A stretch of 64,000 nucleotides of DNA, taken from Gonatopus flavifemur (Eukaryota; Arthropoda; Insecta; Hymenoptera; Dryinidae). Below, one piece after another: positions 4,486 to 61,808 of the stretch. The DNA lies in NCBI GenBank assembly GCA_018340375.1, contig JAFFJZ010000001.1:15890001-15954000 (forward strand). Direction: 5' to 3'. Position 1 is the first letter of the stretch. Each line of letters opens with the position of its first letter. The position numbers were made by a program, and so were the translations under genes. Below the pieces are notes generated by a model. It saw only the letters and a program-made list of their open reading frames with translations, did no database searches and was not told the origin of the DNA.

Positions 4486-4730
4486 CCAAAGTAACACAAG
4501 AATTTGTCGTTATTTTTCACTTTGAATTCACTTCTTCGAACTGAAAACATCGTTTGAAGAATGTACTGCGAGATTTTTGGTCTCTAATAACTGAATATTG
4601 TGTTGTTGGAACACTAATTCGTTTCAATAAACGATCCAAACACCTACAACATTCATTTAGAAGTTCTAAGCGTGCTCGTAGGATTTTCGAAACACGTTCT
4701 TAGCATTTTTATTCTACTGTGTTGCTTGGG
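4486..4730. mobile_element. Class 2 element, family S, copy 1
   Basis: Ends are CCAAAGTAACACAAG (one change from CCCAAG) and GTGTTGCTTGGG, with TA directly repeated at 4484-4485 and 4731-4732. The interior shares GTAGGATTTTCGAAACACG and TTCTTAGCATTTTTA with the other S copies. Confidence 0.75.
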
Positions 4731-5166
4731 TAGTTTCAAAATCGCCAATTTTCACGGGGATCAAATTCGCCATATGTTATTTTTCGGTTAGTTGAAATCT
4801 GGTCGAAAATTAGGCTCTTTACGGTTTTGACCAGATGTTAATGAAAAACAATTATCATAAAATGATTGATTTTATACTGTTTACTACTGAAAAGTTTTCC
4901 AAAAGTAACGGTCTTCCTAATGATCAGTTTTGGATAAAAAACTAAATGTTGACCAAATATTGATTAGAAAGTAACGTTCGCCTATATGAAGTGAAGAGTT
5001 GTATGTTTCGGTATTTTCTGATCGAAAACTATAAAAAAACAACCATAAATTTACAAAAAATAAAGAATTTACCGGGGTGCATAAGAATATTCTCAAACAG
5101 CACCACAGTTCAAGATGAGTTCATAAAAAATATTTCAAGGGCAACGAGAATTCATAAAGGATGCTT

Positions 5167-5225
5167 CCCAAGTAACACAAGAAGTAAGTACTAGGACATT
5201 CTTAGAACTTCTTGTGTTACTTGGG
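5167..5225. mobile_element. Minimal 59-bp family S element
   Basis: A nearly pure hairpin: CCCAAGTAACACAAGAAGT is repeated as its exact complement at the other end, with about 20 bp of loop. Flanked by TT on each side (5165-5166 and 5226-5227). It is the smallest complete element in the window. Confidence 0.8.
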
Positions 5226-5600
5226 TTCATGCATACATGAGTGACTGCTGTGCTGTTTGGGTTGCTGTAATGCGACAATGTCACAGTAATGCCGTAGTAA
5301 TATTTTAAGACATCTTGAAGACGTCAGTGCTGTGTGGTTAGTACCCATACAACAAAAGTTGCTGTGCAACCATCACTCTTATGTTGTTTCTTAAATTCCC
5401 AGCAACACGACAACAACTCGAGCGAAAATCCCAGATTCACAGCATATTGTATATTTTATTTGGCGACGCAACGTCCCTGCAAATTGCTTTAAACTGTGGT
5501 TGTGTGTTTCCAACAATTTGCCGCATATTTGCTCAGCACTTTGCTGTTAGGGTACTCCTCAGAGACGCTTTATTATAAACGTTGTTGAAGTTGGGGATGA
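5226..5600. repeat. Degenerate GTTGCTG/CAACA word-rich DNA
   Basis: Contains TGCTGTTTGGGTTGCTG, CAACAAAAGTTGCTGTGC and CAGCAACACGACAACAAC, resembling the interior and ends of the element at 2997-3260. Ends are too eroded to delimit. Confidence 0.45.
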
Positions 5601-6846
5601 GCGATGTCTGCAAACATCGGTGTTTTTATGTATAATTCTTATCGAATTTAATAAAAAGATCAATGGGAACTAATTCTTTTACATAGAAAGCATTGATCTT
5701 CCCAGACATCAGCAATTCCTATTCAAAATTTAAATTGTATGACAAAACGAATTTAGAATAGAATAAGATTGGAAAAATGTTGACCTAATTCATCGGTATC
5801 AAGAGAAATATATCGAAGGTTTCACTCCGAATCGAACGGTTTAAAAATCCTTCTTTCTTTTTTATTTCCTCAATTTTTTTGACGTTATTCAGTATCTATC
5901 AAAAAACCTTGACCGGGGTGAAATTTGAGATATTTTGATTACCCGTTCAAAAGATATCAAATTAAAAAAATCGCTTCTCCTATTTTTCTTCCTCATAACT
6001 TTCTTGATAATGGTCTGAATTAAAAATTTGTTTACAACATTTTCTCTTATTCATGTATTTTCAGAAGAAAAAACACAAAATAGTTATTCAAAGTGCTGTT
6101 CAAAATGATTTTAAAGTTTTAAACTTTAATTCTTATTTTTAAAAGTGATTGCATATCTTGTTTTTTCTGAAAATCTCCTATCACAAATTCCTCTTTTTTC
6201 AACAATTTTAAACCCCGTTCTAATTGTAGGATCTTGGAAGTTACTATTTTTTTGCGATTTTTGAAAATTTGACAAATTTTTTTTTCTATTAATTATTACG
6301 AATACCAATTTTTGTCCTTGTGTTCTCTTTTTTAACTTATTTTGAATAATTTTGTATGCTTTTTCATTGGTTAACAGGCGTTTGAAATCAACAATTACTC
6401 ATTAAGGTTGTTATATAAACAAAAAATCTCAAATATCAGCAGGAAGGATTTTTTTAATCATAATTTGAAATTGAGGTAATAAAAAAGAATATTTCAAACT
6501 GTATAATTTGGCATAGATTTCCAATATACTAGGTTCATATTTTTTGAATGATGAGAAAATCTAATTCCAACTGGATAACCATGTTAATTCTTTTTAATAA
6601 AAAAAAAAACACTGTCCGATCACGGTACGGCAAAGTTGCATTGTTTGAAGAATCAAATCTTGAATTTTGAAGCAGATGTCTTCACATTTTATTTTTAATT
6701 TTTTGCATAAACAATTCAAAGTTGAACGACATTTGAAGTATGGAAACATATATATATATATATATATATTCTGGTATTTTCATATTACATTTTATATTCG
6801 CTTATAAATTCGTTTTGACAAACGATTTAACCTGCAACAATATTCA
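5601..6846. other. Very AT-rich stretch
   Basis: No gene or element ends recognised. Includes homopolymer runs and the (TA)n run listed separately. If the minus-strand exons at 6847-7584 are real, this would be their 3' side; no single poly(A) signal stands out. Confidence 0.5.
6748..6770. repeat. (TA)n microsatellite
   Basis: About eleven uninterrupted TA units. Confidence 0.9.
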
Positions 6847-6957
6847 TCATACTGTATCACGATCGTTACTGGAATCACTATCCGTATGAAAAATCGTCTT
6901 CAGTTCTTCGTCCAGTTTTCCTTTCACTTTTCTATGACGCCTACTTTCGTTCATCTT
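6847..6957 (-). CDS. Candidate 3'-terminal coding exon
   Basis: On the minus strand a long pyrimidine-rich tract (TTTTCTACTCACATTCCTTC, then CGTCTTCCCTTTC) leads into AAATGAG, a good 3' splice acceptor. After it come 36 codons and a TGA. The peptide is strongly charged and hydrophilic: a basic part (MNESRRHRKVKGKLDEEL) followed by an acidic serine-rich tail (HTDSDSSNDRDTV). It looks like the cytoplasmic C-terminus of a larger protein. The final T-V could be a PDZ-type ligand, which is inference. The acceptor needs a phase-0 donor upstream; the candidate at 8328-8389 would supply one. Family unknown. Confidence 0.42.
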   Translation of the reverse strand, partial: KMNESRRHRKVKGKLDEELKTIFHTDSDSSNDRDTV

Positions 6958-7419
6958 CTCATTTGAAAGGGAAGACGGAAGGAATGTGAGTAGAAAATGA
7001 ATTGAGTTCTATCGACGAATAACCAAAGCGAACAGTAAAAATCAAAAGTTTCATCTCCGGATTTATCAAATTTCAGGTTTTTTATTTTACATGAAACGAA
7101 AAATATGTATATAAGATTCAATTCATATTATACAATTACAATTCGTATATCGGTTGAATAAGAACTATGCTGTGCCAAATAAGACAGTATGGATTCATAT
7201 GCACTTAATTTTCTTTGTTTACCACCATTCAAAATTTTCATTCACTCGTTTTATTGCGTTAAATTCAACATAAACTGATACAATAAGAATCCCCCGTGAT
7301 TTCCAGTCTCATCAATGTGTCATAATACAAGTAAAAAAAATTGTTTTCATATGAAATTACTTTTGAAATGGTCTTGATCTTTGATTTGTATCAGTAACAG
7401 AGCGAGACATTAACTTCGT

Positions 7420-7584
7420 TCATCTGTCTTTGTCCTCCCCGGTTGGTTTGAAAATATACGCTGGTTCTTCAAATGAAAGTCTCGAGGAATGAGCTGTCGA
7501 GGTCACTGTGGCGAAATTGGAAAACATATTGGCACTAGAGATTCCGGAGGTCCCAGGTCGACTGTGAACTGTAGTGGATTTCAT
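7420..7584 (-). CDS. Candidate terminal exon or 54-residue small ORF
   Basis: An ATG at 7582-7584 opens 54 codons ending in TGA at 7420-7422 on the minus strand, in DNA clearly richer in GC than its surroundings. The peptide is Ser/Thr-rich and hydrophilic (TVHSRPGTSGISSANMFSNF, then SSRLSFEEPAYIFKPTGED), typical of a disordered tail. A stop lies two codons before the ATG. Coding could instead begin at an acceptor CACTACAG (exon right end 7568), making it an alternative last exon. I could not join it in frame to the exon at 6847-6957, so they would be alternative 3' ends or separate genes. Function unknown. Confidence 0.38.
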   Translation of the reverse strand: MKSTTVHSRPGTSGISSANMFSNFATVTSTAHSSRLSFEEPAYIFKPTGEDKDR

Positions 7585-7585
7585 T

Positions 7586-8327
7586 TTTCAACAGTTTTGT
7601 AATAATTTTGATTTTAATTTCTCTTCTCTCCAGATGTGCAAATTCACATTATTATTGTGAAGAAGAAGAATAATACACATAAGTGTATGTTGTGCTTCGA
7701 TGAACAAGTATACCGTGATGTCTTTGACTCACTTTTGAACTGATTTTATTATAACTATTCAATATTCATCATTCAAATAACATACTGATGGAAAGCTTAG
7801 AAACATTCTAAACGACAATTGTGAAATTTTCTACCAAAACAATGGTAGCTGCAAAAACTTTCATGGATGACTTTTTCCCATGATTTGGTACAGTTGTGGA
7901 ACATCTCTTATTGTTTATGAATTCACCACTGAAATGAGGATAAATTATTTCTCATTCTTTTTTAATTGTATTGTAAGATATGTAGATATTGATACTTGAA
8001 AAAAAAACTGATCAGAATCGCGACTGATAGAATAGATAGAGAGGATTAAATGATAATTGACAGTTACTTATAATGATTATTTTAGTGTTGACATGATAAA
8101 TTTTTTTCTTATTATACAGAGTATTACTTGTGATAATCACGTCAACAATGAAATAGTGTGAGAGTATCAGTTTCTGACTTTGCTCTTTGGTGCGTCACTA
8201 GAATGTGCTAATAAAAATACAAAAAAATAATATTATTGATTATAAATCGTTGGTATAAAGTCTTTACAAATGTACTGAAAATTCGAAAGAATAAAATATA
8301 ATAGAATGAAACGAAACAAAACTCAAC
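7586..8327. other. AT-rich stretch, no gene seen
   Basis: Nothing recognisable. It would be an intron if the flanking minus-strand candidate exons are real. Confidence 0.45.
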
Positions 8328-8389
8328 CAGAAGGTTCTTTGCGTGTTCATTATTCATAAGTGCTTGGTTGGAATTTGATCGCGGTTGTA
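8328..8389 (-). CDS. Weak candidate internal exon
   Basis: A minus-strand stretch of 20 codons (QPRSNSNQALMNNEHAKNLL) lies between a possible acceptor (GTTCGGATATAG) and a non-consensus donor (CTG/GTTGAG). Its donor phase fits the acceptor at 6957. Short and unsupported by homology. Confidence 0.22.
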
Positions 8390-8757
8390 CTATATCCGAA
8401 CAGGTAATCATTAAGAAACACGTGTCTCAGCAAAAGCAATGATGTTACGTACTCGAACGATTTTGTCAATACGTTATATGATTTCAATCATTAATAATCA
8501 TTTTCACGTTCATTCTCTTTTTTCCGTGACCTTGACATCTTTCGAACATTATTCCAACAGGATTTCGATATAGATTGCACCCGGAATAATAATTTACTTA
8601 AATATGCACCTAGTAGACATTTAATTGCATCCAATAAAATTTTACTTTTTTGAGTCAATTTATTCGGATGAAATACATATTTTATTTGATCCAATTAAAA
8701 CTCTACTAGATTCAGATTCTAAAATAACTTCAGTTGAGTCAAATAAAGTTCACCCTG
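8390..8757. other. No gene recognised
   Basis: AT-rich. A short minus-strand basic peptide (MSRSRKKENERENDY, around 8492-8540) is open but unsupported. Confidence 0.4.
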
Positions 8758-9735: not shown

Positions 9736-10753
9736 ATGGGAAAAAATAAATTTCGAGTTTTGATAAAGCATTGCTTTTTGATGAAAACAAAATATAGTGG
9801 AAACCAAACAATGGCTTGATAAACATTATCCGGGCTCTGCTCCATCGAGACAAATGGTAGAGAAGTGGATTGCTAAATTTAAACGTGGTCGTACCAGCAC
9901 AAATGGCGCAGAGCACAGCGGACGCCCAAATGAGGCTGCTATTCCAGAAAACATAAAAAAAAAAATTCACAAATTGGTTATGAACGATCGCAAATTGAAG
10001 GTGCACGAGCTAGCTAACGTTGTAAAGATATCGGATGGTAGTGTTTTTACCATTTCACACGAAGATTTGGGTATGCGAAGGTTCTGTGCAAAGTGGGTGC
10101 CGCGTGAGCTCACAGTCGACCAAAAACAACAACGAATTGATGGTTCAGAGGAGTGTTTGGCGCTGTTAAATCGCAATAAAATCGAATTCTATCGTCGACA
10201 TGTGACAATGGATGAAACATGGCTTCACCATCACACACCAGAATCCAAAAGATAGTGAGCTGAGTGGACAGCAGTCGACGAATCAAATCCAAAGCGAGCA
10301 AAGACGCAACAGTCGGCCGGTATGGTGATGGCTGTATTTAGGGATGCTAAGGGAATAATATTAATCGATTATCTCCAAAAAGGAACCACTATCAACAGCG
10401 ACTATTACTGTGAACTTTTGGATCGATTGAAGGCTGAAATCGCAAAGAAACGGCCACATTTGCGTAAGAAAAAAGTGTTGTTTCACCAAGACAATGCATC
10501 GTGTCAGAAATCGATGAAAATGATGGCAAAATTGAATGAATTGGACTTCGGATTGTTTACCCACCCACCGTATTCTCCAGATTTAGTCCTCAGCGACTTT
10601 TTCCTGTTTTCAGATCTCAAGAGAATGCTTGCTGGACAGAAATTCAAGTCCAATGATGAAGTAATCGCTGAAACCGAGGCATATTTTGAAGAGGAAGAGA
10701 AATCGTACTATAAAAGTGGTATCGAAAAGTTGGAAAATCACTATGTTGAATAA
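9736..10753 (+). pseudogene. Mariner transposase pseudogene (D,D34D)
   Basis: A mariner transposase, which cuts and joins element ends using three aspartates. Reading begins at ATG 9736 (MGKNKFRVLIKHCF). One extra A in the run 9784-9787 shifts the frame, and the protein continues as VETKQWLDKHYPGSAP from 9797. An N-terminal helix-turn-helix region is followed by MDETW (first Asp at 10211), HQDNAS (second Asp at 10490) and HPPYSPDLVLSDFF (third Asp at 10595). There are 34 residues between the last two Asp, the mariner signature. Two adjacent in-frame stops, TAG 10253-10255 and TGA 10256-10258, sit where family members usually have Q-S. Frame is otherwise open to TAA 10751-10753. The catalytic triad is intact, so decay is recent, but no active protein is made without correction. 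Confidence 0.93.
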
Positions 10754-14259: not shown

Positions 14260-14744
14260 CCCGAAGAGAACATGAAGCTTCAGCGAATGTTCAGATTTGA
14301 TCTGTATAGATCGGATCGAAGGTTTATGAAAGTTAACTTTTAGATTCACAAACGTTTGACGAAGGTTCTACGAACGTTGAAATGTCCGCCTCGAAATACT
14401 TCCAGGAAGCATAGATTGAACGTTTGTTGAAGGTTCATCGAAGGTTTGATGAAGCTTCACAAAAATATCTATACTTATGTCAATTTTCATCAATTGAAGT
14501 GAGTAATCAATTAATGAATAAACATAAATCAATTCAAATTGATATAAGTATAGATATTTTCGTGAAGCTTCCATCTATGAACGTTCCATCTATGTTTCCT
14601 GAAACTATTTCGAGACGGACATTTCATCGTTCGTAGAACCTTTATCGAATGTTTGTGAATCTAAAAGTTACATTTGATGAACCTCCGGCCCGATCTATAC
14701 AGATCTAATCCGAATGTTCGCTAAAGCTTCATGTTCTCTTCGGA
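14260..14744. mobile_element. Class 2 element with GAACGTT words (485 bp)
   Basis: Ends CCCGAAGAGAACATGAAGCT and AGCTTCATGTTCTCTTCGGA (last G changed to A) are flanked by AT at 14258-14259 and 14745-14746. The arms extend over about 200 bp and contain repeated GAAGGTT/CGAACGTT words, making a long hairpin. Confidence 0.75.
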
Positions 14745-17353
14745 ATATTATAGAGAATACTGTTCCGAAGCTCATAGCAAGAGGTAATTTTATAGACATC
14801 TGTTTGTTACAGATGAAAATAAATAATCTCAGTGATAAAATTCTCTCAACATCCATTATAATTCAATTCAAATGATTCTAATTACTATCTGTGGAATTCG
14901 ATAAATAATCGAAAAAAATTCGAAAAGTTAGGTTGTATTCACTTCCCTGATGAACAAAGTTTCTCTGAAAATCTCTGAAGATTCCCCTGAATTTCACTGC
15001 AAAACTCTAAATCTAATTGAAAAACATCGAAAAGCCTGAAAGAATCTGGAAAACTCTAAAAACCTATGAAAATTTGGAAAAAACTCTTAAAATTCCTGAA
15101 AAATTCTGAAAACTTTTACTTATTGGGTACGTTTTTCCATTATAAATTTTGAAGAATATTTATGAATATCTCTGAAAAACTCTGAATCTTCCTAAAAATC
15201 ACTGAGACTCTTTGAGAAACCATGAACACCTCTGAAATGCTTTGAAAAACTGTTCACTGAAATTTTTTCGCCGGGGCTTTGAGGTTGAAGTTTCGTTTTT
15301 TAACTTCAAAAAAAAAGCAACGCAATCCAAATCGATAAATTCAACGAAACATAAAAGTAGATCAATTTATTTCGTTGGTATTATTATCTGTAAATAATCC
15401 CAAATATTCCAGAGTCTCAAAATGACATGAAGAGAAAGTAATTATAATACACATTTCTCTGCTTCGAGGCAAGTAAAAGTTAATACATATATAACGTGTT
15501 ACAATGATTACGTAATATTGCTGACTTTTCATGTACTGGCGTTCATGAAATCCAACTCGGTGACATTGATGTTGCTTACATTTTGAAATTCTTGGTTGGT
15601 TCCCTGTAAACTTACTTTGGAATGTTCTTACCTCATGATGGTGTATTGATATACACACGCATGTGTATTGATTTACTTTACTCGAAACCTCAAATCTTAC
15701 GCAGAACATACTCTTCTAAAACTGGCTGACCCGCTTATCAAACCTCTTTAACCAAGTATTCTTATTTCGTCATACGTAATATCGTGTACGGATTTGAACA
15801 TTAAAAAGTACTGAGAAATTGTATATCAACATTTGATGAATATTTCCTAGGAAAACGGTCATTATACATGATAACTTTATCTATGATTAATATAATATCA
15901 TTGGTCAGTAACCACATCTTATTCCAAGTAGAACTGATAGGTAAAAAAATGTCATTTTGACGTCTTTTCGAAGTCATCAAGTATATAAAAAGGTCAAAAT
16001 GGTACACCTGCAAGAATCTATATCACGTCAATCCCATGTAAATACATTTGGACTTTATTTTGATCGTAAAATAACATAATAATTAAAGTAGGCGTACCAG
16101 TGCCTGACTCTGCACCAGTAGCTGGCCCTTTATTTATAGATACGATTTAATGAGGGAAGTATTATTTATTCGTTAAATTTCTATGCAACAAAACTTACGG
16201 ATCGATTTGAAAAATGAAATTTTAATAAATATTTGGCAGATGATGAATTTTTGGCTCTTCAAATTGAATTACTACCCAAAGGGGCAGCTACTTGTGCAGG
16301 GTCTGGTTGCGGTACACTGGAGTCAAAAAGACAATTTCCAAATATGCAATAAAATTTGGAATTTGCACATTTTCTGGACCAAAAATCTATTACCAAAAAG
16401 TTAGTTCTAGAAGAAAACGATCGGTTTTAAAACGTTAAAATGGATAGTTCTTGAAAAATGACTCAATTTTCAGTGGAATGTTTTCCTTGTTCTGTTTATT
16501 TTTCTACATCGAGTATCCAATATTGCCCTGTTACTGAATGAGCTTTTTGCCTCATATCAAGGGATATATTGAGTTCAGTAGTTATATTCATTCTGAGAAA
16601 ATAAGACTTTATGCCCAAAGCAAAATTAAGGAAGGATCGAATAATTCAAAAAATACTTGTCACATACATGTTTTCCGTTTTTTTTTAGAAATCGAGTGTC
16701 CACCGTTTCGGTTAGTTCTTAAATTTCCTTAGAATATGCCCTGATTTCTGACGAACATCTCGATCGTTACTGATATACTGTATGATGGATTTTTGTCCAA
16801 ATGATATAAAAATGATCCCTGACTTTTCTTACAATAGTTTTGAGAAACTATTTCTTTGGTTTCTAATAGTTCCGATCGTATTTTGAGTCACTTATGTATT
16901 CATGGACTGATGAAGTTTTGATTCATAATCGGTAAGTGAATAATCGTCTGTGGAAGAAAATTGCTTAACGCTTAATGACTTGACATCCATGCATACCTGA
17001 GTATTGTAAAATTTATATTGATAGTCCCAATTATTAGGTTTTGTCTTTCTCAATTCCCTCAAGTATACTATTGTAGATGCACTTTGTTGTGAAATTCGAG
17101 CAGTTCATGAAATAACTAATTATGGGTGACTGATTCATTTTTTATAAATCTCTTATCATCATGCTTCATACAGTTGCAAAAAAAAAAATAAATCTCACTG
17201 CGTTTTGGTACTGGAGAATTCCAGTGAATCCATTTTCCTGGACATTTACTGAAATTTTACGGATTTTGTCCTACGAAATTCCGATTTTTGCTGTAAAATT
17301 CCAATGAATGTATTAGAATATTCCAGCAAATGTACTGTAATTATCACCTCAAC
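14745..17353. other. AT-rich stretch, degenerate repeats, no confident gene
   Basis: 14937-15265 holds degenerate CTCTGAAAATCTCTGAA words related to the satellite inside 54369-55566 and 59100-60735. On the minus strand near 15625, ATCATGAG/GTAAGAAC is a good donor-like sequence, but the frame before it (15640-15709) is short. Frames at 15801-16013 and 16183-16404 are unsupported. Confidence 0.4.
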
Positions 17354-17577
17354 CCAAGTAACACAAGAACATTTCAAACATTTTGCGTTAATTCTGAGAT
17401 CATGCATACAATGTGCAGGTGAGACTGTTTCGGATGAATTCGAAAAATACATTCTAAGACCGTGCATAGAATATACTTATCCGCAACAGTCCCATTCGAA
17501 GATTCTATGAATGTTCATAAAATATACTCAGAACTTCAAAGAACCTTCTTAGCATTTCTAACCTTTTGTGCTACTTG

Positions 17578-18113
17578 CCCAAGTAGCATCGGGATATACT
17601 ATGTATGTTCTACGAATATTCGAAGTATATTCCATGCACATTCTAACCCAGATAACGTGTAAGCTTGTCATAACCCTGTCATACTTGTCATTCGATTGTT
17701 TTTGGCTTGTTATTGACAACCTTGTCAGTGTAAAGTTGCTACAGCCCTGCTGCAAGGGTTTTGTAAGCTTGTACCCTTGTCGTGTGTCAACTAGGAGGCT
17801 TATATCAACCTTGTCACAAGCTTGCCTGACAACATTGCAGCAAGGTTGAATTGCTATCTGGGAATGAGACCGTTTCATAGGTGCTATGTACATTCATCGA
17901 ATATACGTAGTCGAATATACGATCGTACGTCAAACGAACGTCGATTGAATGGATATCGTACATTTCGAATATACTATGCACATACTAAGTATACGTAAAA
18001 TAGTCTCATTCAAATATTCTATGAACGTTCATTGTATGCTCTTTGAATCTTATTCGTACATTCTATGAACGTTTCTATTTCGTATATACGTTGAACTTCC
18101 ATTGCTGCTTGGG
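17578..18113. mobile_element. Second S-like element inserted 2 bp from the end of copy 3
   Basis: Ends are CCCAAGTAGCATCGGG and CCATTGCTGCTTGGG, flanked by TG at 17576-17577 and 18114-18115. The interior repeats ATTCTATGAACGTTC-type words. Confidence 0.76.
17647..17862. mobile_element. Class 2 element with CAAGCTTGTC words (216 bp)
   Basis: Ends are CCCAGATAACGTGTAAGC and TTGAATTGCTATCTGGG, with AA at 17645-17646 and 17863-17864. The interior repeats ACCTTGTCA/CAAGCTTG units. This is the innermost layer of a three-level nest. Confidence 0.82.
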
Positions 18114-18130
18114 TGGGAATGTACTGGTTA

Positions 18131-18346
18131 CCCAAGGAGCACAAGAACTCCTCAAATATGCTATGGTGACTCTATGAATGTGAAAGGGATGTGCGAATGA
18201 GACTATTTTTGATAAATTCGTTAAGATATTCTATGGAGGTGCATAGCACATAATTATTCGAAACAGTCTCATTTGGAGGTTCTACGCATGTTCGTAGGAT
18301 TTTCCAAACACGCTTTTAGCATTTCTAACCTCTTCTGCTACTTCGG
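18131..18346. mobile_element. Class 2 element, family S, copy 4
   Basis: CCCAAGGAGCACAAGAACTC to CTTCTGCTACTTCGG (end eroded from GGG), flanked by TA on each side (18129-18130, 18347-18348). It matches 61100-61316 closely, for example CTATGGAGGTGCATAGCA. Confidence 0.78.
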
Positions 18347-25615: not shown

Positions 25616-26040
25616 AAATTAGATGCACTGCAATGAAGGATAAAAAATTCCTGCCGCAGCAAATCGAGGGATTATATAAAGGATAGTAAAACCTTTTTGC
25701 TAACCTAGTTGAAAATTTGCTGCCACAGCTAATTGGATTGCTGAGAAAGTAACGTGATTAACGAAAGCAGCAAATTTTTCGCTGGACTTGCAAAGTTTGC
25801 AGTACTATATACAGAATAGCAAACAAATTTTGCTCCCACAGCTGAAGAATCACAGTCATAGCTAACAACCCAAGTGACACCAATATGCGTAAAATATTCT
25901 ACGAACATTCGTAGGATATTTCAACGTTTAACGAACATTCTGTGCTACTAGGGAAGATTGCTGTCATTGCGAAAAATTTGTTGCTCCAGCAAAATTAGAT
26001 TTTGCTGTCACAGGGAATTTCTTTTTTCTCCGTGAGTAAG
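25616..26040. repeat. Degenerate GCTGCCACAGCAAATTTTGCTG tract
   Basis: Words AAATTTGCTGCCACAGC, AAATTTTGCTCCCACAGC and TTTTGCTGTCACAG recur. Bounded by CACTGCAATG on the left and TTTTTTCTCCGTG on the right, possibly a worn class 1 element. Split by the S copy at 25869-25953. Confidence 0.5.
25869..25953. mobile_element. Class 2 element, family S, copy 6 (85 bp)
   Basis: CCCAAGTGACACCAATATG to TCTGTGCTACTAGGG, with AA at 25867-25868 and 25954-25955. Confidence 0.75.
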
Positions 26041-28476: not shown

Positions 28477-29607
28477 CACGGAGAAAAATGCAGGTCGAAA
28501 ATATAGTAATCTTGAATAAAAATTGGAGAATATTTCTTAAAATCTAAGAGTATTTCTCAAATGCTTAATAACCCATGAAAAAATTGTCCACGCCTGTTCA
28601 CGCCTGATCAGGCTTCATTCATCAGGCAGGATCAGTCGTGATCAGGCCTCAATTTTGTACCCACGTGATGAGGACTGATCATGCTCAATCACGCCCAATC
28701 ACGCTCAATTATGCTCCATTATGCATTAGGAATTCATACAAAATCAACAAGTTTTCTGTGATAAATGAAACTAACAATGTCATCGAACACTGATTTATTG
28801 TCAATCATTTCTACTTATCATGCTCATGCCGTTTCCATTTTCTAGTTTTCAGGTTTCAGGTATGATCACGCGTGATCAGGCGTACACGCACGCCTTCGGG
28901 GCCGATTTAGCACGATAAAACATGTGTATTCGTGATACAAAAATCAACACAGCGTCATTTTGTATGAATAATTGTCAGTCGGTGAGATTTTGCATGATCA
29001 CAGGCGAGAATGGTTTGTCTGGTGTGATCACAGGCGATTGAGCTTGATCACGGGTTTTCACGTGGGTACAAAATTGAAACGTTTTCAAGTGATGACGATG
29101 CCAAAAAATGAACGACCAGGCGCAGTCAGGCTCAACTACGTGCAGTCAGTATTGAAGACTAATAATTTTGCTGAAAAATGTCCATTATTAGGCTTGCGCA
29201 CACCTGATTAGACCTGAACGATTTTTTCACGGGAAAGATAAAATGGTTCACATTTTTGTGGAATTGTATTCGAAAAACAATGACAAATCATCAATACTTA
29301 ATAAAAAATAGAGAAACATATGAAGTTTCCAAAAGTCATGCGTGAAATTTTACAAAGACAATAACAAAATTTCAATATCCTACTATTCACTTTATAAAAT
29401 TTCATACGCCACTTATGGGAAGTTCATATGTTTCTCTATTTTCTATTAAGTATTGATAACTTTTCCATTTTCTTTCGAATACAATTCCACAAAAAAGTGA
29501 ACCGTTTTATCTTTATTATTCGTTCAAGAAAAACTCTCAGAATTTAAGAAATATTCTCAAATTTTTATTAAAGATTACTATAATTTCGACCTACATTTTT
29601 CTTCATG
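28477..29607. mobile_element. Class 1 long palindrome, family F, carrying an insertion
   Basis: CACGGAGAAAAATGCAGGTC pairs with the complement ending CTTCATG, TA on each side. Together the arms cover about 190 bp: 28477-28571 plus 29234-29330 against about 29415-29607. The left arm is split by 28572-29233. The right arm shows the uninterrupted sequence AATAATAAAGATAAAACGG. Confidence 0.83.
28572..29233. mobile_element. Class 2 element, family E, copy 1 (TGATCAGGCG words)
   Basis: CCCATGAAAAAATTGTCC to GAACGATTTTTTCACGGG, flanked by AA at 28570-28571 and 29234-29235. The interior is built from degenerate CCTGATCACGC units in both orientations. Its target is proven by the intact partner arm. 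Confidence 0.87.
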
Positions 29608-34646: not shown

Positions 34647-34957
34647 TAGAGATACATAATTCATAAGTTGAATATATTTCTACACTCTATATTGACTTTT
34701 CCACATGAGATCATATTGACAAATGTTAGATAATAAAACAATATTCCCTCCTTCATGAATTCCGTTATACAGATTACAAAGTTTGATTTTGTTTTTTCTT
34801 TGCTGGGTAGCAGCAGCTTTATTTCCCATTGTAGAGGTCTTTTTTCCTCGTGCTTGATGAAAATTTTGGGTTGAAATAGATAAATTCCTTCGTATAGTGA
34901 CAGAAGGAGTAATAAAAATAAATCAAAATAAATTATAGTTCGCAATGAAGAACGAAC

Positions 34958-35230
34958 CTACATTACAATTTTGGATCACTCTTTTGGATCATTCTAAAAG
35001 ATATCTTAAAGAATTCGAAAAGATGTCTTATGAAACACCAAAAGATATCTTTTGGAAGTCTTCATGCGAGATTTCTTGGAGTTTTCTGAAGGTATCTTTT
35101 AGAATTCTTAAAGATATCTTCCGTAAGATATCTTAAAGATGTCTTTAGGTGTTTCATAAGACATCTTTTAGAATTCTTTAAGATACCTTTTAGAATATTC
35201 CGGAAGAATTCCTCAAAATTGTTATCTGGG
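34958..35230. mobile_element. Class 2 element with AAAGATATCTTTTAGAATTC words
   Basis: Left end CCTACATTACAATTTTG and right end CAAAATTGTTATCTGGG pair along arms that include AAAGATGTCTTATGAAACAC. AA lies at 34956-34957 and 35231-35232. The right terminus matches that of 17647-17862, while the interior word differs. Confidence 0.7.
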
Positions 35231-36570: not shown

Positions 36571-37746
36571 CTGGGTGTTTCAGAATTTATCTTCCGGATT
36601 TCTGTGGTGTATTCTGCAGCCAAAATGCAATAATTTCTCGTTTGAAAAAAATTGTTTGGAGGCTTGGTTCTTGAGCTGTGAGTATTTTTAGATGTTTTTT
36701 CAAATCTAAATAACTTAACAGCATTGTGTTCTACATTCTTGACCCTAACATCATTCTCTGAGTTGGCAAACGCCCGATCTCTGGGAAAAAAAATTCCATT
36801 TTCTTATCATTCTTTGTTTCGAAGCAATTTTAAACTATTATAGTTCCGAAACAAAGAATAATAGGATAATTGAATTTTTGCCCGGAGATCCGGCGTTTCC
36901 CAACGTAGATAATGATGTTAGCATCAACCCGTGAAAAAATCCTTCAGGTCTGATTAAGCTTGTTCAAGCCTGATCATTGACATTTTTTGGCAAAATTATT
37001 CATATTCAAAACTGACTGCACGTGGTTAGGCTACGCCTGGTCATCCATTTTTCAGCTTGATCGCAACTGAAAAGACCTCAATTTTGTACACATGTGGGAA
37101 CCCTTGTTTAAGTTTGACCATGTGCGATCATACTAGACAACCCGTTCTCGCTCGTGATCATGCAAAATCGTACCAGATGAGAACTATTCATACAAGATGA
37201 GTCTGTGTTGATTTTTTTATCACGAATGCACATGCTTTATCATGTTAAATCGGCCACAAACGCATTCGCGTACGTCTGATTACGCGTGATTATGCCTCAA
37301 AACTGGAAAATAAACAATGGAAACTGTATAATCGCAATAAGTATAAATGATTGATAATGAATCACCTTTTTATCAAGTTTTCATAGCTTTATTCCTTACA
37401 GAAACCTTATTAATTCTGTATGAATTTTTCATGCATAACGGAGAATAATCGAGCGTGATTAGGCGCAATTGTGCGTAATCAATCCTGATCATGTGGGTAC
37501 AAAATTGAGGCTTGATCACGCCTGATGAACAAGGCCTGATCAGGCGTCATCAGACGTGGAAGATTTTTTCACGAAAAGAATGTAGAACACAATGCTGTTA
37601 AGTTATTTGGATTTGAAAACAAAATCTACAAATGCTCGTAGCTCAAAAACTAAGCCTGCAAAAAATTTTTTTCAAACGCGAAATTATTGCATTTTGACTG
37701 CAGAATATACCACAGAAATCCGAATGATGAATTCTGAAACACCCAG
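36571..37746. mobile_element. Long foldback, family D, copy 1
   Basis: CTGGGTGTTTCAGAATTTAT pairs with the complement ending TTCTGAAACACCCAG, TA at 36569-36570 and 37747-37748. Arms of about 250 bp; the interior shares TTCTGCAGCCAAAATGCAAT with copy 2 at 62227-62797. Confidence 0.83.
36928..37575. mobile_element. Class 2 element, family E, copy 2, inside D
   Basis: CCCGTGAAAAAATCCTTC to GGAAGATTTTTTCACGAA (end eroded), AA at 36926-36927 and 37576-37577. The opposite arm of D reads GGGTCAAGAATGTAGAACAC with one AA, confirming the duplication. Same TGATCA-rich interior as copy 1. Confidence 0.85.
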
Positions 37747-48815: not shown

Positions 48816-49435
48816 CCCGACTGGAAATTATCATAGGGTTGACCTGACGAATGGTGAGGACCTAACAAGATCATCCAAAATACGGTATACCCGCTGAAAT
48901 CGTAATCAGGATTAGATCTGGATGTCCCACGTAGGGATAAGCCCATTTAATCCTAATTAGGTTTCCCTCAAATTATTCTAGAAGGTTGAAATAGGTTTTC
49001 CTGGCGGTAATCTCATCAAGACCTTGTTAGGTTGTCCTGAGATTATGAACATATATGTTTATAAAGTATAGTTCAATAAAGTGAATGCAAAAATGTCTTG
49101 ATTTCAGATTCTATACTTTCTAGTGAAATACAGTTTTTCTAAATTAGGAAAATCCTTCTGAACAAATGTCAACTGTGTACCTTTCAAGTTGGATCTTTCC
49201 ATGCCGAATACAACATTTTTTGGTTGTGGATTTCCTGTTCATATCCTAATTTCAATTTATTCTGGAGGTTTTGGTATGGGATTCCGCATCAAGTCCTTAT
49301 TAGTCTTGCCTCATAAGATCCTTATATTAGTAGAGCGTGACATGACTTGTCAGGTCCTGACGAGGTTGCCTTACTAGGACCTGGGCTGGATCAAAGTTGA
49401 CCTGATCTTATCCATGGGGTAAATTTCTAGTCGGG
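48816..49435. mobile_element. Class 2 element, family M, copy 1
   Basis: CCCGACTGGAAATTATCA to GGTAAATTTCTAGTCGGG, with GT at 48814-48815 and 49436-49437. The interior is made of AGGTCCTGATAAGG/GACCTAACAAGG words. Confidence 0.83.
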
Positions 49436-49524: not shown

Positions 49525-50669
49525 CACGGAAAGACCCCCGACTGGAAATTTACCCCATGGACCTGATCAGGTAAACCTTGATCCAGCTCAGGTCCTGATA
49601 AGGCAACCTTATCAGGACCTGACAAGTCATGTCACGCTTCACTATTATAAGGACCTCATCAGGAGAGACTAATCGGGCTTTCATGAGGAATTCCATACAG
49701 AAACCTCCAAAATAACTCGAAATTAGGATATGAACAGGAAATCCAAAGCAAAATCAAAAGATTAAAGAGACATCAAACAGATTGAACATCAGTGAATTGA
49801 TTCGATAAAATTTGGTTTCAATACGTTAGGGATAGATTGAACAAAGTAGTCAACAGTGTTGAGAAGTAGGTAATGTATTTGGAATGAACAGATTGAATTT
49901 AAAAATAGGCACACTCAGCTAGAAACGTGACATTTTGTCTTCTCAGGCCCTGCTTTGGGCCAACTTGGCGCGATCTGGGTCAAGTTAGGGCCTTTGATGG
50001 TCCAATTTGGAGGAAGGGCCATTTTTAGCAAGGCAGTTGAGAATCCTTCGAGATTTACCTTCTAATTTGAGGAAAATGTGTTGAATCAAAGAGTGTACAG
50101 TCTACAATCAAGACTGTACATGTTTTATTCAGTTTATTAAACTATCTTCATGATCTGAGGATGAACTAACGAGGTCCCAATGAGGATACAGCGAGGAAAA
50201 CCCACTTCAGCCTTTTAGGATAATCTGAGGAAATCCTGACTAGGACCAAATGAGCTTATTTATACGTGGGACATCCACACCTAATCCTGATCAGGACTGT
50301 AGCAGGTATGCCTCATTTCGGCTGACCTTGTTAGGTCCTCATCATATGTTGGGTCAACCCGATGACAATTTCCAGTCGGGCCGGGTCTATTAATATTTAG
50401 AAAGAATTTATCAACGTTTATAAAAATGACTGCCAATTTAGGGAAAACGAGAATCGCTGAAAAACATTCGTAGTGAGTCTACCGAAAATTCGTAGTCAAA
50501 ATATTAACAGTTGATAGTTTCATCGGTATTTTTCACAGTGAAACTATCAATTGTTAATACATCAACTACGAATTTTTAGTAGAATCACTACAAATATTTT
50601 TTAGCGATCCTCGTTTTCCCTAAATTGACAGTCATTTTTCCAAATATTAATAGACCCGGTCTTTCCGTG
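49525..50669. mobile_element. Class 1 element, family N, interrupted by M copy 2
   Basis: CACGGAAAGACC to GGTCTTTCCGTG, TA on both sides. The right part is a hairpin of TGACTGCCAATTTAGGG and AACTATCAATTGTTAATA words. The right arm reads AAAGACCGGGTCTATTAATA without a break, showing the target before M inserted. Confidence 0.83.
49537..50380. mobile_element. Class 2 element, family M, copy 2 (inverted to copy 1)
   Basis: CCCGACTGGAAATTTACC to GACAATTTCCAGTCGGG, flanked by CC at 49535-49536 and 50381-50382. Its right 300 bp is the complement of the left part of copy 1. It also holds a GGGCCAACTTGG patch near 49950. Confidence 0.86.
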
Positions 50670-53358: not shown

Positions 53359-53456
53359 TCCCCAAGAGAACGCAAACCTTCAGGTGAACCATTGAACGTT
53401 CGCGAACCTCCAGGAACATTCAATAAACGTTCCTGAAGGTTTGTGTTCTCTTGGGG
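53359..53456. mobile_element. Class 2 element with GAACGTTC words (98 bp)
   Basis: CCCCAAGAGAACGCAAACC to GGTTTGTGTTCTCTTGGGG, AT at 53357-53358 and 53457-53458. Related by words and ends to 14260-14744. Confidence 0.8.
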
Positions 53457-54189: not shown

Positions 54190-55663
54190 CACGGAAAAAA
54201 TAAGTGGTCCAAATTTTCGTTGACTAGTATGCCAATTTTGGACGGAGCACAAGTTTGGAAAGAATTCTTATACTGGATTTCAATAATTCATTAATTGTGT
54301 TCAATATTCGAACAATGGGATCCACTTTTTATTTCCATTATCGAAATGATGAAAAAAGTCAACGAATTCCCTGGTAAAAGAATTTCTCTGAATCTCTCTG
54401 AAAATTTCACGTTTCAGAGAAATTCAGAGCAATTCAGCGTGGTTCAGAGGATTTCAGAGACTAGTGGATTGAGAGAACTTGTGCTCTGAATTTTTCAGAG
54501 GAACTCAGAGAAAGGCAGGGAAATTCAGGGGAATTCAGAGAGGAATGAATTCAGTGAAATTCTTGGTCCTGCATTTCAGAGGCGTTCGAGGAGTGTCAGA
54601 CGCTTCCAGAGATAGATGGATTCAGAAAGATTATGCGTAGAACTTTTCAGAAATATTCAGAGGAATTTAGAGAGATTCAGAGTAATTCAGAGAGATTCAA
54701 AAGAATTCAGAGGGATTCAGAGGAATTCAGAGAGGAATTAATTCAGCTCAATTTTTGGTTCAGGATTCCAGAGGTATTCAGGGAGTGTCAGAGACTCACA
54801 GAGACAGGTGAATTAGGAAGAATTGTGTGTGGGATTTTTCAGAAAGATTCAGAGAGATTCAGCGGAATTCAGAGAGACGCGGGGGAAGTCTGGGAAATTT
54901 AGAGAGGAATAAATTCACTAAAATCTTGGTCCTGCATTTTAGAGGCTTTCTGGAAGTTTGAGAGACTTCCAGAAACAGGTACATTAAGAAAAATTGTGCG
55001 TGGAACTTGTTAGAAATATTCAGATGAATTTAGAAAGATTCAGAGAGATTCACAGGAATTCGGAGAAATTCAGAGGAATTCAGAGGAAGCTTTGAAATCT
55101 GAAAACATTAAATTCCGGAATATTTAGAGGAATTCAGAGAGATTCAGAGAAGTTCAGAGAAATTCAGAGGAATTCAGAAGGAGCTTTGAAATCTGAATAC
55201 ATTAGATTCAGGGAGATTTAGAGAAATTCAGAGAGATTCAGAGAAGTTCAGAGGAATTCAGAGGAATTCAAAAGAAGCTTTGAAATCTGAATACATTAGA
55301 TTCAGGGAGATTTAGAGAAATTCAGAGATATTCAGGTAAATTCAGAGGGAGCTTTGAAATTTAAATATATAAAATTCTGAGGGATTCAGTGATATGCGGA
55401 GAGATTCAGAGAAAGTTGAAGAATTCAGAACGTATCACTATCGGAAAAGTCTCTAACTCCCTCTGAATTACTCTGAATCTCTCTGAAATTTGTCCCAAAA
55501 TATAAAGAGATTCAGAGAAATTCAGAGAGATTTCAGAAAGATTCAAAGAGATTTTTTTCACCAGGGTTATTGAAATCCAGTGTATGAATTCTTCTGCAAA
55601 TTGTGCTCCGTCCAGAAGTGATATACTATTCAACGAAAATTTGGATCACTGTTTTTTTCCGTG
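54190..55663. mobile_element. Class 1 element, arms of about 105 bp, carrying Q copy 1
   Basis: CACGGAAAAAATAAGTGGTC to AGTGTTTTTTT-type right end ending CCGTG, TA on both sides (54188-54189, 55664-55665). Arms share CCAAATTTTCGTTGA, GGACGGAGCACAA and CTGGATTTCAATAA. Confidence 0.8.
54369..55566. mobile_element. Class 2 element, family Q, copy 1 (CAGAGAGATT satellite inside)
   Basis: CCCTGGTAAAAGAATTTC to GAGATTTTTTTCACCAGGG, TT on both sides (54367-54368, 55567-55568). The body is about 1.1 kb of degenerate 10-11 bp ATTCAGAGAG/ATTCAGAGGA units. Frames read as Arg/Glu/Phe/Gln repeats and are by-products. Confidence 0.85.
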
Positions 55664-56699: not shown

Positions 56700-56701
56700 C
56701 A

Positions 56702-56926
56702 CACGGAAAAAATAATTTAGCTGCAGCAACTAAGTAGCTAGCACGGACACGGACAGCCATTAAATTAGCTCCTGCAGCTAAATTTTAGCTGTTACCGCAA
56801 GTAGATTAACTACAAATGCAAATTTTTTTGCTATAACAGCTAAAATTCAGCTACAGGAGCTAATTTAATGGCTGTCCGTGTCCGTGCTAGCTACTTAGCT
56901 GCTGCAGCTAAATTATTTTTTCCGTG
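56702..56926. mobile_element. Class 1 foldback with AGCTGCAGC words (225 bp)
   Basis: CACGGAAAAAATAATTTAGC to AAATTATTTTTTCCGTG, CA on both sides. Arms of about 95 bp are nearly identical (TAGCTAGCACGGACACGGAC). It is one of the two cleanest hairpins in the window. Confidence 0.88.
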
Positions 56927-56928
56927 CA

Positions 56929-58452
56929 GAAACGATGGATCTTGAAGGACAGTATCTATCCTTTTTTATACAAGAAAATTATCGATTCTTCACCAATTTT
57001 TATAGAATAAAAATAAAAATCTGATATATTTTATATATAAAAGAAGAACACTCACTATTCTCTAAGGCCTATTCCCAATACGGATGAGTGGTATGTACAG
57101 TATCGATCCATGCATTTGAAAACATATCGAGTTTTAATCGATGGTATGTGAAAATTCATGTAGATTCTATATTTTTACTGTAGACAAGTATCTATAGGAT
57201 CATCTATTTTTCATGGTTAGTCCCCTGCGTGAAATTTTTCGAAATTATATTAAATGCTGACAATTTCCTTCTTATAGAGTATTTAATTAAGGGGTGTAGC
57301 CACTGTAGAAGGCTCAAAATGATGATTTTTCTCTATAAGGAAATTATTTACTTAAATAAGTGCCCAGCCAGCACAAAAGATCAATTTGAATTCATAAAGC
57401 CTTCTCAAAGATTTCTTGAATAGTTCCCGTTATGCGACCAATGATGAATTCAATAAGGATTGAAGTTTCAATCGAATTTTATAGATTTCAAATTCAATGT
57501 ACTGGAATAGAGGAAAATTTGTTCAATCTTTTGAAACAATTTCTGTATTCAATTCTGTAATTTCAATTTGTCGAAATATTCGTATACGGGGCATTCCATG
57601 CCAAATCTGCAGCGATTTCCCTCCACATCTTCGATGTTTTTCAAATTTTCAGGGTCGATAGAGGAACCCAAATGATGAAGTTCCACCAAATTTTAGCCCC
57701 TTCTGAGCATTTTTGCAAAGTTGACAGGATGAACAAAAGAAATGTTTTTTCGTTTCATTTTGGAATATTTCAAGAATCGAATGATGAAAAATTCATACAT
57801 ATGTATTGCTAGTGACTCTTTTCAGATAAATTTTTTTGAAAAAGAACAACTACAAATTTAATAACAAGTACATTTTTTTTATAAACAAATCGAATTTTTT
57901 AAAAAACGTCCCGTTTAAAAAATTTGAAAAAATTCATAGTGATAGCCTCAAGTTTCACGGCAATTTTGGTTTTTTTTAAATCTGGGGGACTCAAAAATTG
58001 TGGAAGTTATGAATATTTTTGTGGAGTGATGCGCGTGAAATCGCTCCCTGATCGATACCGTGAATAGCGCCTTCCAGTTTCAACGCAAAAAACCATCGAG
58101 GAAACTTCTGATTCCGGAAAACTCCAAACGACAAAGTTTTTCCACTATGTTCGAAGATGGTTTCCTGGAATTCCCAGATTTTTTACTCCAATTTTGAATA
58201 AGGTACGGACGATTTTCTATCACCGGGATCAAAATCATCGATACGCCGCGCTGATGGAAAATCGTGAAATCTAATTCATAGAGTTCAAATGTAGACTGTA
58301 TCAAAATTATACAAAATATTCTCTTTTTCTGGAAATGAATTCTTATACAATGAATACAAAATCTATGAACATCATCTATGGTCACACAACATTCTAAATA
58401 AAACTTAGAAAATTGTTTTTCTAGATAAAATTATATATGAATTATATATGAC
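56929..58452. other. No gene recognised
   Basis: Frames 57229-57423 and minus 58080-58385 are open but have no domain or splice support. Confidence 0.4.
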
Positions 58453-58596
58453 CAGGGACTGGAATGTTATTCACTTACGTTACTTATTATATATAAAATC
58501 TATATAATATATATAATTTGTGTACAATATATATATATATATTATATACATTCTATATATAATGAGTAACGTAAGTGAATAACGTTCCAGTCCCTG
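58453..58596. mobile_element. hAT-like MITE with a perfect 8-bp duplication (144 bp)
   Basis: CAGGGACTGGAATGTTATTC pairs with GAATAACGTTCCAGTCCCTG. Flanked by identical TATATGAC at 58445-58452 and 58597-58604. The centre is AT-rich with TA runs. Confidence 0.87.
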
Positions 58597-58604
58597 TATA
58601 TGAC

Positions 58605-59043
58605 CCTTTGATTATGCGTTATTTTTATATAATTGTATAAAAATTCAGTTGAGGAGATAATGTTCGAACTCCCTGTGTTTTCCTCTCATGTGAGAATATC
58701 AAACCGCCTCAGTCGTGACATCTGTTGAAATACTTATACACTTCATTCATAGAATTCTTGAGACTTAACAACTTTATCAACGTAGGTAGAGTCATTGCAC
58801 AAACCAGTTTCACATTGAGATAATTTATGAGTTGAATGAGATTATGTCTGAGGATAAACGATACTTCAGAGGGTAGCAACTTTTCTGTAATGAGAATATG
58901 TAGTTTATATGAATTTTGTTTCATAAAATATGAGTTCGAATTTAATAAAATACTGTGTACACAAATGTCGGTATAGTAGATATTTAGAATGGAGAATATC
59001 GATATTACTGATAGTTTCGTATGAAATATGCATACAATTTTTA
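58605..59043. other. No gene recognised
   Basis: AT-rich; minus frame 58709-58924 unsupported. Confidence 0.45.
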
Positions 59044-59099
59044 CATGTTCGAAGTTTGAATCGTTTATTGAAACGAATTAGTGATTAAATAACGAGATA

Positions 59100-60735
59100 C
59101 CCTGGTGGAAAACATCTCTCTGAACCTCTCTGGAATCTCTCTGAATTTCTCTGAATCTCTCTATTAAGACAATTTCAGAGAGATTCAGAGTAATTCAGAG
59201 GAAGTTAGAGACTTTTCCGATAGTGATACTTTCTGACTTCTTCAACTTTCTCTGAATCTCTCCGCATATCACTGAATCCCTCAGAATTTTATATATTTAA
59301 ATTTCAAAGCTCCCTCTGAATTTACCTGAATATCTCTGAATTTCTCTAAATCTCCCTGAGTCTAATGTATTCAGATTTCAAAGCTTCTTCTGAATTCCTC
59401 TGGATTTCTCTGAACTTCTCTGAATCTCTCTGAATCCCTCTAAATTCCTCTCAATCTCCGGGAATTTAATGTATTCAGATTTCAAAGCCTCCTCTGAATT
59501 CCTCTGAATCTCTCTGGATTACTCTGAATCTTTCTAAATTCCTCTGAATATTTCTGAAAAATTCCACGCACAATTTTTCTTAATTTATCTCCCTCTGGAA
59601 GTCTCTGAAACTTCCAAGAAGCTTCTGCAGCAAAAAAAAAGAAGCAAAAATGCAGGACCAAGAATTGTAATAAATTAATTCCTCCCCAGACCCCCCGGAT
59701 CTCTCTAAATTCTTCTGAATCTCTCTGAATTTTTTTGGAAATTCCCACGCACAATTCTTCCTAATTCACCTGTCTCATTGAGTTTCTGATACTCCCTGAA
59801 TACCTCTGAAATCCTGAACCAAAAATTTAGCTGAATTAATTCCTCTCTGAATTCCTCTGAATTACGCTGAAGCTTTCCAAATTCTCCTGAATATTCCTGA
59901 AATGCTTTACCCACATATTTTCCCTAATTCACCTGTCCCTGTGAGTCTCTGACATTCCCTGAATACTTCTGCAATCCTGAACCAAAAATTTTACTGGACT
60001 AATTCTTCTCTGAATTTCTCTGAATTCCTGTGAATCTCTTTGAATTACTCTGAATCTTTCTCAATTCCTCTGAATATTTCTAAAAAGTTCCACGCACAAT
60101 TTTCCTTAATGTATCTGTCTCTGGAAGTCTCTCAAACTTCTAGAAAGCCTCTGAAATGCAGGACCAAGAATTCCACTGAATTTGTTCCTCCCTGAATTTC
60201 CCAGAATTTCCCTGTATCTCTTTGAATTCCGCTGAATCTCTCTGAATCTTTCTGAAAAATTCCACGCACAATTTTTCCTAATTCACCTGTCTCTGTGAGT
60301 CCCTGACACTCCCTGAATACCTCTGGAATCCTGAACCAAAAATTTAGCTGAATTAATTTCTCTCTGAATTCCTCTGAATCTCTCTGAATTATTCTGAATC
60401 TTTCTAAATTCCTCTGAATATTTCTGAAAAGTTCTACGCACAATCTTCCTGAATTCATCTATCTCTGAAAGTGTCTGACACTCCTTGAACGCCTCTGAAA
60501 TGCAGGACCAAGAATTTCACTGAATTTGTTCCTCTCTGAATTTCCCAGAATTTCCCTGTATCTCTCGCAGTTCCTCTGAATCTTTCTGAAAAATTCAAAG
60601 CACAAGTTCTCTCAATCCACTAGTCTCTGAGTGCCTCTGAACCACGCTGAATTGCTCTGAATTTCTCTGATTCTTTCTGAATCTCTCTGAAACGTGAAAT
60701 TTTCAGAGAGATTCAGAGAGATTTTTTTACCAGGG
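59100..60735. mobile_element. Class 2 element, family Q, copy 2 (inverted, 1.6 kb)
   Basis: CCCTGGTGGAAAACATCTCT to AGATTTTTTTACCAGGG, TA on both sides (59098-59099, 60736-60737). Filled with CTCTGAATTC/CTCTGAATCT units, the same satellite as copy 1. A block with TCCACGCACAATTTTTC and CCTGAACCAAAAATTTAGC recurs several times inside, a higher-order unit of roughly 200-250 bp. Confidence 0.85.
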
Positions 60736-60773
60736 TACTCAGTTGTTGAAGACTATGAATCTTTCGATGCGAT

Positions 60774-61099
60774 CCCTGGTTAAACTAAACCATTGATCCT
60801 CGCCAAATCTCATTGAATCTTGTACAATGTTCTGACCAAATCCTTTTCAAGCATTTGTCAACCCACATAGCACCACTATTCCAGAAGGATTCATAAAGAA
60901 TTCTCATTGAACTGATTGTGTTCTTTGATGATTTTTCTGAGACTATGGTGCTGCGAGGGAATGAGATTGTCAGATGACAGTATTTCTTCAATGTGATTCT
61001 GATTGAATCTTGCCAAATCTGATTGGATCTTGTACAATGTTCTAACGAAATCCTATTCAATTTCATATCATCAAATTCTATGGATTTTTTTGACCAGGG
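60774..61099. mobile_element. Class 2 element with Q-like ends but a different interior
   Basis: CCCTGGTTAAACTAAACC to GATTTTTTTGACCAGGG. The interior is GAATCTTGTACAATGTTCT and TGATTCTGATTGAATC words, not the Q satellite. After removing the next element its flanks are AT and TT, a near match. Confidence 0.65.
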
Positions 61100-61464
61100 C
61101 CCAAGTAACACAAGAACTTCCCAAATATGCTATGATTATTCAGTGAATGTGAAAAGACTGTACAAATAAGCCTATTCTGGATAAATTCGTCTAGATATTC
61201 TATGGAGGTGCATAGCAGATAATTATTCGTAACAGTTTCGTTTGGAGGTTCTGAGCATATTCATAGGATTTTCCAAACACGTTCCTAGCAGTTTTAACCT
61301 CTTGTGTTGCTTGGGGTAGGGATAGGCAATATTTTGACTGTATCGATATTTTTATAGAAAATTTCGCGAGTTTATATTGAATTTTATATAATATAAATCG
61401 AATTCTTATACAAATTGTATAAAAGTATCGATACTGTCAAAATATCGCCTATCCCTAGCTTGGA
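61100..61464. mobile_element. Class 2 element, family S, copy 5, interrupted
   Basis: CCCAAGTAACACAAGAACTT to GCTTGGA (GGG eroded), GG at 61098-61099 and 61465-61466. Interrupted by a hAT-like MITE next to its right end. Confidence 0.75.
61317..61457. mobile_element. hAT-like MITE in S copy 5 (141 bp)
   Basis: TAGGGATAGGCAATATTTTG pairs with CAAAATATCGCCTATCCCTA. Flanks GCTTGGGG and GCTTGGAG (seven of eight). Confidence 0.82.
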
Positions 61465-61699
61465 GGTTGTTCAAACGATGTTTCCAGTTCCAAGGAGTTA
61501 ATTCACCAAGATAAATAATGATAATTCATCAGATCCTGTGAGATTGGATTTGCGTCTCGTGTTTTAAAACGATTCACACTTAAACAGCATAAATGTTTGT
61601 CAAAATGTTATAAAAAGTCATAAAAACTGGATATATATTTTATAGGAATATATCGATAAATATCGCCTATCTCTAGTAAATATCACTCATTTCTATATA

Positions 61700-61808
61700 C
61701 CCATACAGCAGACCAGTTCAGAAAGAGTTCGTGAAGAACTCTAATAAGGGTTTGAAGACTTCAATATGAATTCTCAAGAATTCTTTCTCAACTCCTGTGC
61801 TGTGTGGG
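61700..61808. mobile_element. Class 2 element with AAGAACTC words (109 bp)
   Basis: CCCATACAGCAGACCAG to CCTGTGCTGTGTGGG, TA on both sides. Confidence 0.75.

Follow-up and report, generated by a model that had tools for sequence, protein, structure and literature searches.

The stretch analysed here, called the window, comprises 64,000 nucleotides (nt) of the dryinid wasp Gonatopus flavifemur (G000:C1:15890001-15954000, in an assembly of 636 Mb and 402 contigs) and contains 20 transposable elements that begin with CCC and end with GGG, most of them flanked by two copies of the same dinucleotide. The window is AT-rich (33.8% guanine plus cytosine by base counts), and no transfer RNA (tRNA) gene was detected in it by a tRNA search run in the bacterial setting. 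The 20 places examined are the 17 elements claimed in a preliminary description of this DNA, a further candidate at 34958, and two elements, at 2997 and 60774, that the same description gave as failures. Right ends were delimited chiefly by the best inverted-repeat similarity, with three exceptions: the partner of 59100, at 60735, was chosen by the family end motif, the right end of 25869 was shifted by one base to 25953 after the first flank count, and the partner of 17353, at 18117, was assigned across a nested insertion.

Elements of the window and their two-base flanks

The CCC core is present at the ends of the elements, a few of which have one or two bases eroded, and on the sequence of these ends the elements, listed without strand, were ascribed to several families. 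Family A is found at 4486..4730 (245 base pairs, bp; TA duplication; left end eroded to CCAAAG), 5167..5225 (59 bp; TT), 17353..18117 (a 227-bp element with an AA duplication, split by another insertion), 18131..18346 (216 bp; TA; right end CCG) and 61100..61315 (216 bp; flanks GG/GT). The splitting insertion, 17578..18113 (536 bp; TG), belongs to family A2 and itself contains a family F element, 17647..17862 (216 bp; AA). The other A2 element lies at 25869..25953 (85 bp; AA), and its right end, CCCTAGTAGCACAGAATGTTCGTTAAA, resembles a published end from Tribolium. Family F is also represented at 2997..3260 (CCCAAACAGCA / CCCAGACAGCA; 264 bp; flanks AC/AG, with no exact duplication) and at 61700..61808 (CCCATACAGCA / CCCACACAGCA; 109 bp; TA), family B at 48816..49435 (CCCGACTRGAAATT; 620 bp; GT) and 49537..50380 (844 bp; CC), and family D at 28572..29233 (CCCRTGAAAAAATY; 662 bp; AA) and 36928..37575 (648 bp; AA; right end eroded to TTC), the latter within a repeat related to 62223-62801. 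Family E comprises 14260..14744 (CCCGAAGAGAACATGA / TCCGAAGAGAACATGA; 485 bp; AT) and 53360..53456 (CCCCAAGAGAAC; 97 bp; AT), and family G the element at 34957..35230 (CCTACATTACA / CCCAGATAACA; 274 bp; AA). The longest elements are those of family C, 54369..55566 (CCCTGGTRAAAA; 1198 bp; TT), with TTCAGAG/CTCTGAA repeats like those of a 15.8-kb transposase-bearing element described below, and 59100..60735 (1636 bp; TA), both ends of which match that element in reversed orientation; a C-like element of 326 bp at 60774..61099 has unmatched flanks (AT/CC).

With the final ends, 17 of the 20 elements have identical 2-bp flanks, 10 are compatible with a duplication of 1 bp and none with one of 3 bp; therefore, the duplication is two bases long. 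Before the correction at 25869 the count stood at 16/20 (p ~7e-15, for a chance of 7.8% per site), and displacement of the test to 16 other offsets, with those same uncorrected ends, rendered between 0 and 4 matches in 20. Seven dinucleotides are duplicated literally, AA, TT, TA, AT, TG, GT and CC, of the at least eight kinds that had been claimed; the eighth, GG, is recovered when an element nested at 61317-61457, within the right terminus of 61100, is allowed for, which turns the flanks of 61100 into GG/GG. Taken literally, then, 16 of the 17 elements first claimed do carry matching dinucleotides, some of them with ends moved by one base, and 61100 joins 2997 and 60774, for which the lack of an exact match had been correctly reported, as a non-match. 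Three start positions had to be moved, from 17354 to 17353, from 53359 to 53360 and from 34958 to 34957, and at the last of these the additional element fits with AA as had been proposed. The nested element at 61317-61457 has ends TAGGGATAGGC...GCCTATCCCTA and is flanked by an imperfect, near-identical 8-bp duplication (GCTTGGGG/GCTTGGAG); we take it to be hAT-like, judging by the length of that duplication.

The variety of the duplicated bases bears on the identity of the elements. piggyBac transposons, whose target is TTAA, were rejected as a source because the 2-bp duplications are varied and in 0/20 elements are the flanks equal over 3 bp. Two adjacent open frames with a stop between them are found at 9785-10753, and presumably encode a mariner-like transposase. 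These frames favour Tc1/mariner, and the occurrence of TA and AT among the duplications would suit a known superfamily with 2-bp duplications other than CACTA, either Tc1/mariner (TA) or ISL2EU (AT). We consider such an origin highly improbable, since the window holds seven dinucleotides, of which AA, TT, TG, GT and CC are at odds with both superfamilies, and AT, in addition, is at odds with the TA-only duplication of Tc1/mariner. ISL2EU, moreover, is described as ending in GG and duplicating AT (PMC4482050), a combination that these elements do not show. The preliminary description of the sequences as transposable elements with CCC...GGG ends and non-specific 2-bp duplications, distinct from Tc1/mariner, is supported.

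Natural empty sites and duplications elsewhere in the genome

A natural empty-site test is provided by the nest at 17353-18117, where the family A element beginning at 17353 carries in its right end the 17578-18113 element, an insertion with a TG duplication. Excision of the inner element together with one TG restores a 227-bp element with a GGG end and AA on both sides, which is identical to copies elsewhere in the genome at 213/227 (L016), 214/227 (L026) and 214/227 (L018) positions, that is, ca. 94%. The nest thus conforms to what is expected of an insertion, an empty site that lacks one copy of the duplication, for the inner TG within the outer AA. A second case is supporting only: when one AA is removed and the two sides of the 36928 element (family D) are joined, they align unbroken across the junction to a related palindromic repeat (62223-62500), with 74% identity, a level that does not allow the bases to be placed exactly. 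That repeat forms part of a large palindrome at 62223-62801, with arms of 275 nt that are 86% complementary; relatives of it were observed at 36610-36795/37576-37748 and in L055 (7103-7664), and the family D element at 36928 sits in one of them.

The end of family A, CCCAAGTAACACAAGAA (17 bases, up to 2 mismatches allowed), has 2442 + 2461 = 4,903 matches in the genome, in comparison to 110 + 105 = 215 for its reversed control. The exact 17-base end is also present in six stretches of viral contigs, a number that, by a rough estimate, is probably near chance. A sample made up of the first 30 exact end matches in the genome listing, all of them on contig C1, rendered 22 paired elements, 17 of which (17/22) have matching 2-bp flanks, and three loci without a partner. 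When the three elements that belong to the window are dropped, 16/19 match; in one of the three misses the right end is poor, and in another the flanks agree over 3 bp (AAT).

For families B to G, the evidence on duplications outside the window comes from a blind scan of triplets in 34 pieces amounting to 160,873 bases. CCC...GGG pairs were accepted when no more than 3 of 16 positions mismatched, and the filter removed redundant loci, pairs with family A ends and pairs in which the repeat runs on outward for three bases. A single shifted family A pair escaped the filter and counts as a miss, and some pairs are mutually nested. Equal 2-bp flanks were found in 18/38 CCC pairs versus 41/659 pairs of 24 other triplets (Fisher p 3.5e-11). 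It could be argued that the identity of the flanks reflects chance, or a choice of ends made by eye, given that some ends were moved by one base and that a blind scan confined to the window, under permissive conditions, renders only weak enrichment (CCC, 6/23; all other triplets, 735/7215). This explanation is, however, refuted by the outside scan, in addition to the 16/19 family A elements that match outside the window and to the nested insertion whose removal restores a known copy, and we find it hardly credible.

Transposases between CCC...GGG ends

The domain Transposase_21 (PF02992), the transposase domain of CACTA elements, has 90 matches in this genome at E <=0.001 and none in 14 control genomes (0/14), and scores above the cut-off in the 4/4 open frames that were scanned. 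Fifteen of these loci were obtained as pieces of ca. 3.4 kb, and wider surroundings were obtained for six of them. Two of the six are long units with CCC cores on both sides, so that the same genome does contain what the preliminary description had suggested looking for, a transposase enclosed by ends of this kind.

The first unit, C394:322316-338112, spans 15,797 bp between TA flanks and holds an uninterrupted open frame of 810 amino acids (aa) with a PF02992 match at E 2.9e-9. Its ends, CCCTGGTAAAAAAATCTCTCTGAA and CCCTGGTGAAAAAAATCTCTCTGAA (beginning CCCTGGTAAAAAAATCTC.../CCCTGGTGAAAAAAATCTC...), are rich in TTCAGAG/CTCTGAA repeats, and the left end finds its best reverse match in the right one, with 1 mismatch in 14; the next candidate inside the unit, at 14719, has 3 mismatches and a partner of its own at 14451 with a TG duplication. 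The window elements 54369-55566 and 59100-60735 share these ends and repeats, and their alignments to the unit cover 986/1198 and 1045/1636 bases, respectively. Family C therefore has a PF02992 transposase between its own ends, in this single copy, and the link to the transposase is in this case direct.

The second unit, C68:1873464-1886565, spans 13,102 bp; its terminal repeats, of ca. 470 bp, share 97% identity and start with CCCACGCAGAAAAAAATTGGCTGG and CCCGCGCAGAAAAAAATTGGCTGG. It also holds the PF02992 match with the highest score in the genome, and its coding stretch is divided between two open frames, one of 522 aa and one of 292 aa. At the other four loci (L052, L053, L054 and L055) no ends could be accepted within ca. 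10 kb, the candidate pairs being at chance level. For a B-like left end near L037 (join position 5669), no convincing partner lies within 23.4 kb; short family B-like stretches were found near that locus by BLAST. An open frame of 725 aa at 482-2656 of L055, adjoining the PF02992 transposase frame, is possibly the second gene of that element, or possibly belongs to another repeat. The named species among the best 30 protein relatives of the transposase are all ants or parasitoid wasps, the four best relatives carrying no species name; transposons can, in general, cross between species.

Relation to published CACTA transposons

The preliminary description held that no known superfamily fits these elements. 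That statement does not stand, because CCC ends together with non-specific 2-bp duplications are the published signature of the animal CACTA elements named TRC, for Transposon Related to CACTA (DeMarco et al. 2006, PMC1636069; PMC4298943). TRC elements have been described in Schistosoma, Tribolium and Aedes; they carry the Transposase_21 (PF02992) domain and 2-bp duplications, the latter found in 7/14 Schistosoma copies, for three of which empty sites are given. Their ends start with CCC in the three genera, a motif proposed as the core of animal TRCs (PMC1636069). The elements described here share with them the CCC core at both ends, the 2-bp duplications and a PF02992 transposase in the same genome. 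Moreover, the Tribolium TRC end given in that paper and the right end of 25869-25953 are identical at 23/27 bases; the next-best position of the window, on both strands, reaches 18/27. Sizes are different, since the TRC elements in PMC1636069 measure ca. 4.5, 5.2 and 9.2 kb, in addition to truncated copies, in comparison to 59-1636 bp for the elements of the window and 13.1 and 15.8 kb for the long units.

Spongebob, which includes the Hydra element EnSpm-4N1_HM and insect relatives, has been filed as a TRC member of CACTA by its CCC ends and 2-bp duplication (PMC4298943). Its end, CCCAGCCAACATTGAC, shares at most 10/16 bases with any end of the window, too little to demonstrate descent; it is a different family. 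Plant CACTA elements (En/Spm) also carry the Transposase_21 domain, and their core is CACTA instead of CCC, a contrast made in PMC1636069 itself.

We conclude that the elements of the window are, with a probability of about 0.9, members of the animal CACTA (En/Spm) branch, TRC, of the type of miniature inverted-repeat transposable elements (MITEs). They would be non-autonomous, because the 20 elements, of 59-1636 bp, are too short for a transposase frame of ca. 800 aa. Their ends, the duplication of many dinucleotides, the natural empty-site test and the two long transposase-bearing units are direct observations. Beyond family C, the link to the transposase appears strong for A2, and for A through the CCCAAGTRRCAC start that it shares, as judged by the similarity of the ends, and for B, D, E, F and G we infer TRC membership from two features, the CCC core of their ends and the 2-bp duplications. 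It is conceivable that several of these last families are mobilized by a non-CACTA transposase and represent a separate, undescribed superfamily, living beside TRC, that has converged on a CCC core and a 2-bp stagger. No transposase was found here inside B, D, E, F or G, and beyond the CCC their ends differ from those of A and C and from published TRC ends. On the other hand, their core, duplication length and indifference to the target equal those of the families tied to PF02992, and the C68 unit, which bears PF02992, has yet another CCC end (CCCACGCAG...), so that diverse ends are to be expected within the group. We consider a separate superfamily unlikely.

Several observations weigh against the assignment to TRC, or against the duplication on which it partly depends. 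Only 2/6 of the PF02992 loci with wider surroundings, out of 90 matches, have located ends; each of the two units is one copy, in which two unrelated ends might in principle have come to lie around a transposase, and the flanks of the C68 unit are ATAT on both sides, which fits a duplication of 4 bp as well as one of AT. In the six loci of the 90 that were widely examined, no transposase lies between ends of family A, B, D, E, F or G. The common sequence of another PF02992 family, L043/L053, begins with (C)ACTAGAAG and not with CCC. Regarding the flanks, the family A element G000:C1:11109437-11109652 fits a duplication of 3 bp (AAT) and not of 2, perhaps owing to an occasional 3-bp stagger; the controls of the outside scan are uneven, with 7/39 for CAC and 6/39 for CTC, the best-populated ones, and 3/10 for GGG; and the permissive scan of the window is not specific for CCC, as GGG (5/16) and GCG (4/14) rank above it. 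The two L043/L053 copies, L053 from 3481 and L043 up to 3132, are 99% identical and share sequence from (C)ACTAGAAGAATAAAAG onward; their start is possibly a classical CACTA-type end coexisting with the CCC type in one genome. A motif CMCWR, reportedly given for CACTA ends in a 2007 review, is not used as evidence here.

Plant CACTA elements have subterminal repeats, move by cut-and-paste and generate 3-bp duplications. In the case of the TRC elements described here, the transposase would bind the terminal repeats (CCC...GGG) and probably also the subterminal TTCAGAG/CTCTGAA repeats of family C, and would excise the element, presumably by cut-and-paste. The target to which the element is then joined would be cut with a stagger of 2 nt, its sequence mattering little, and gap repair would leave a 2-bp duplication of whatever the target held. 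Families B, D, E, F and G presumably use the same kind of transposase.

The TRC type has been in print since 2006; the finding opens no new class, and what is new here is only the families and their abundance in this genome. It shows, nonetheless, the abundance that is possible for animal CACTA elements of the TRC type, with 4,903 matches to the end of one family and copies down to 59 bp. It also provides two long units with the transposase domain, one of them with an uninterrupted frame of 810 aa. For annotators, it means that membership of CACTA should be tested for miniature repeats with CCC...GGG ends and 2-bp duplications of any sequence before they are left unclassified.

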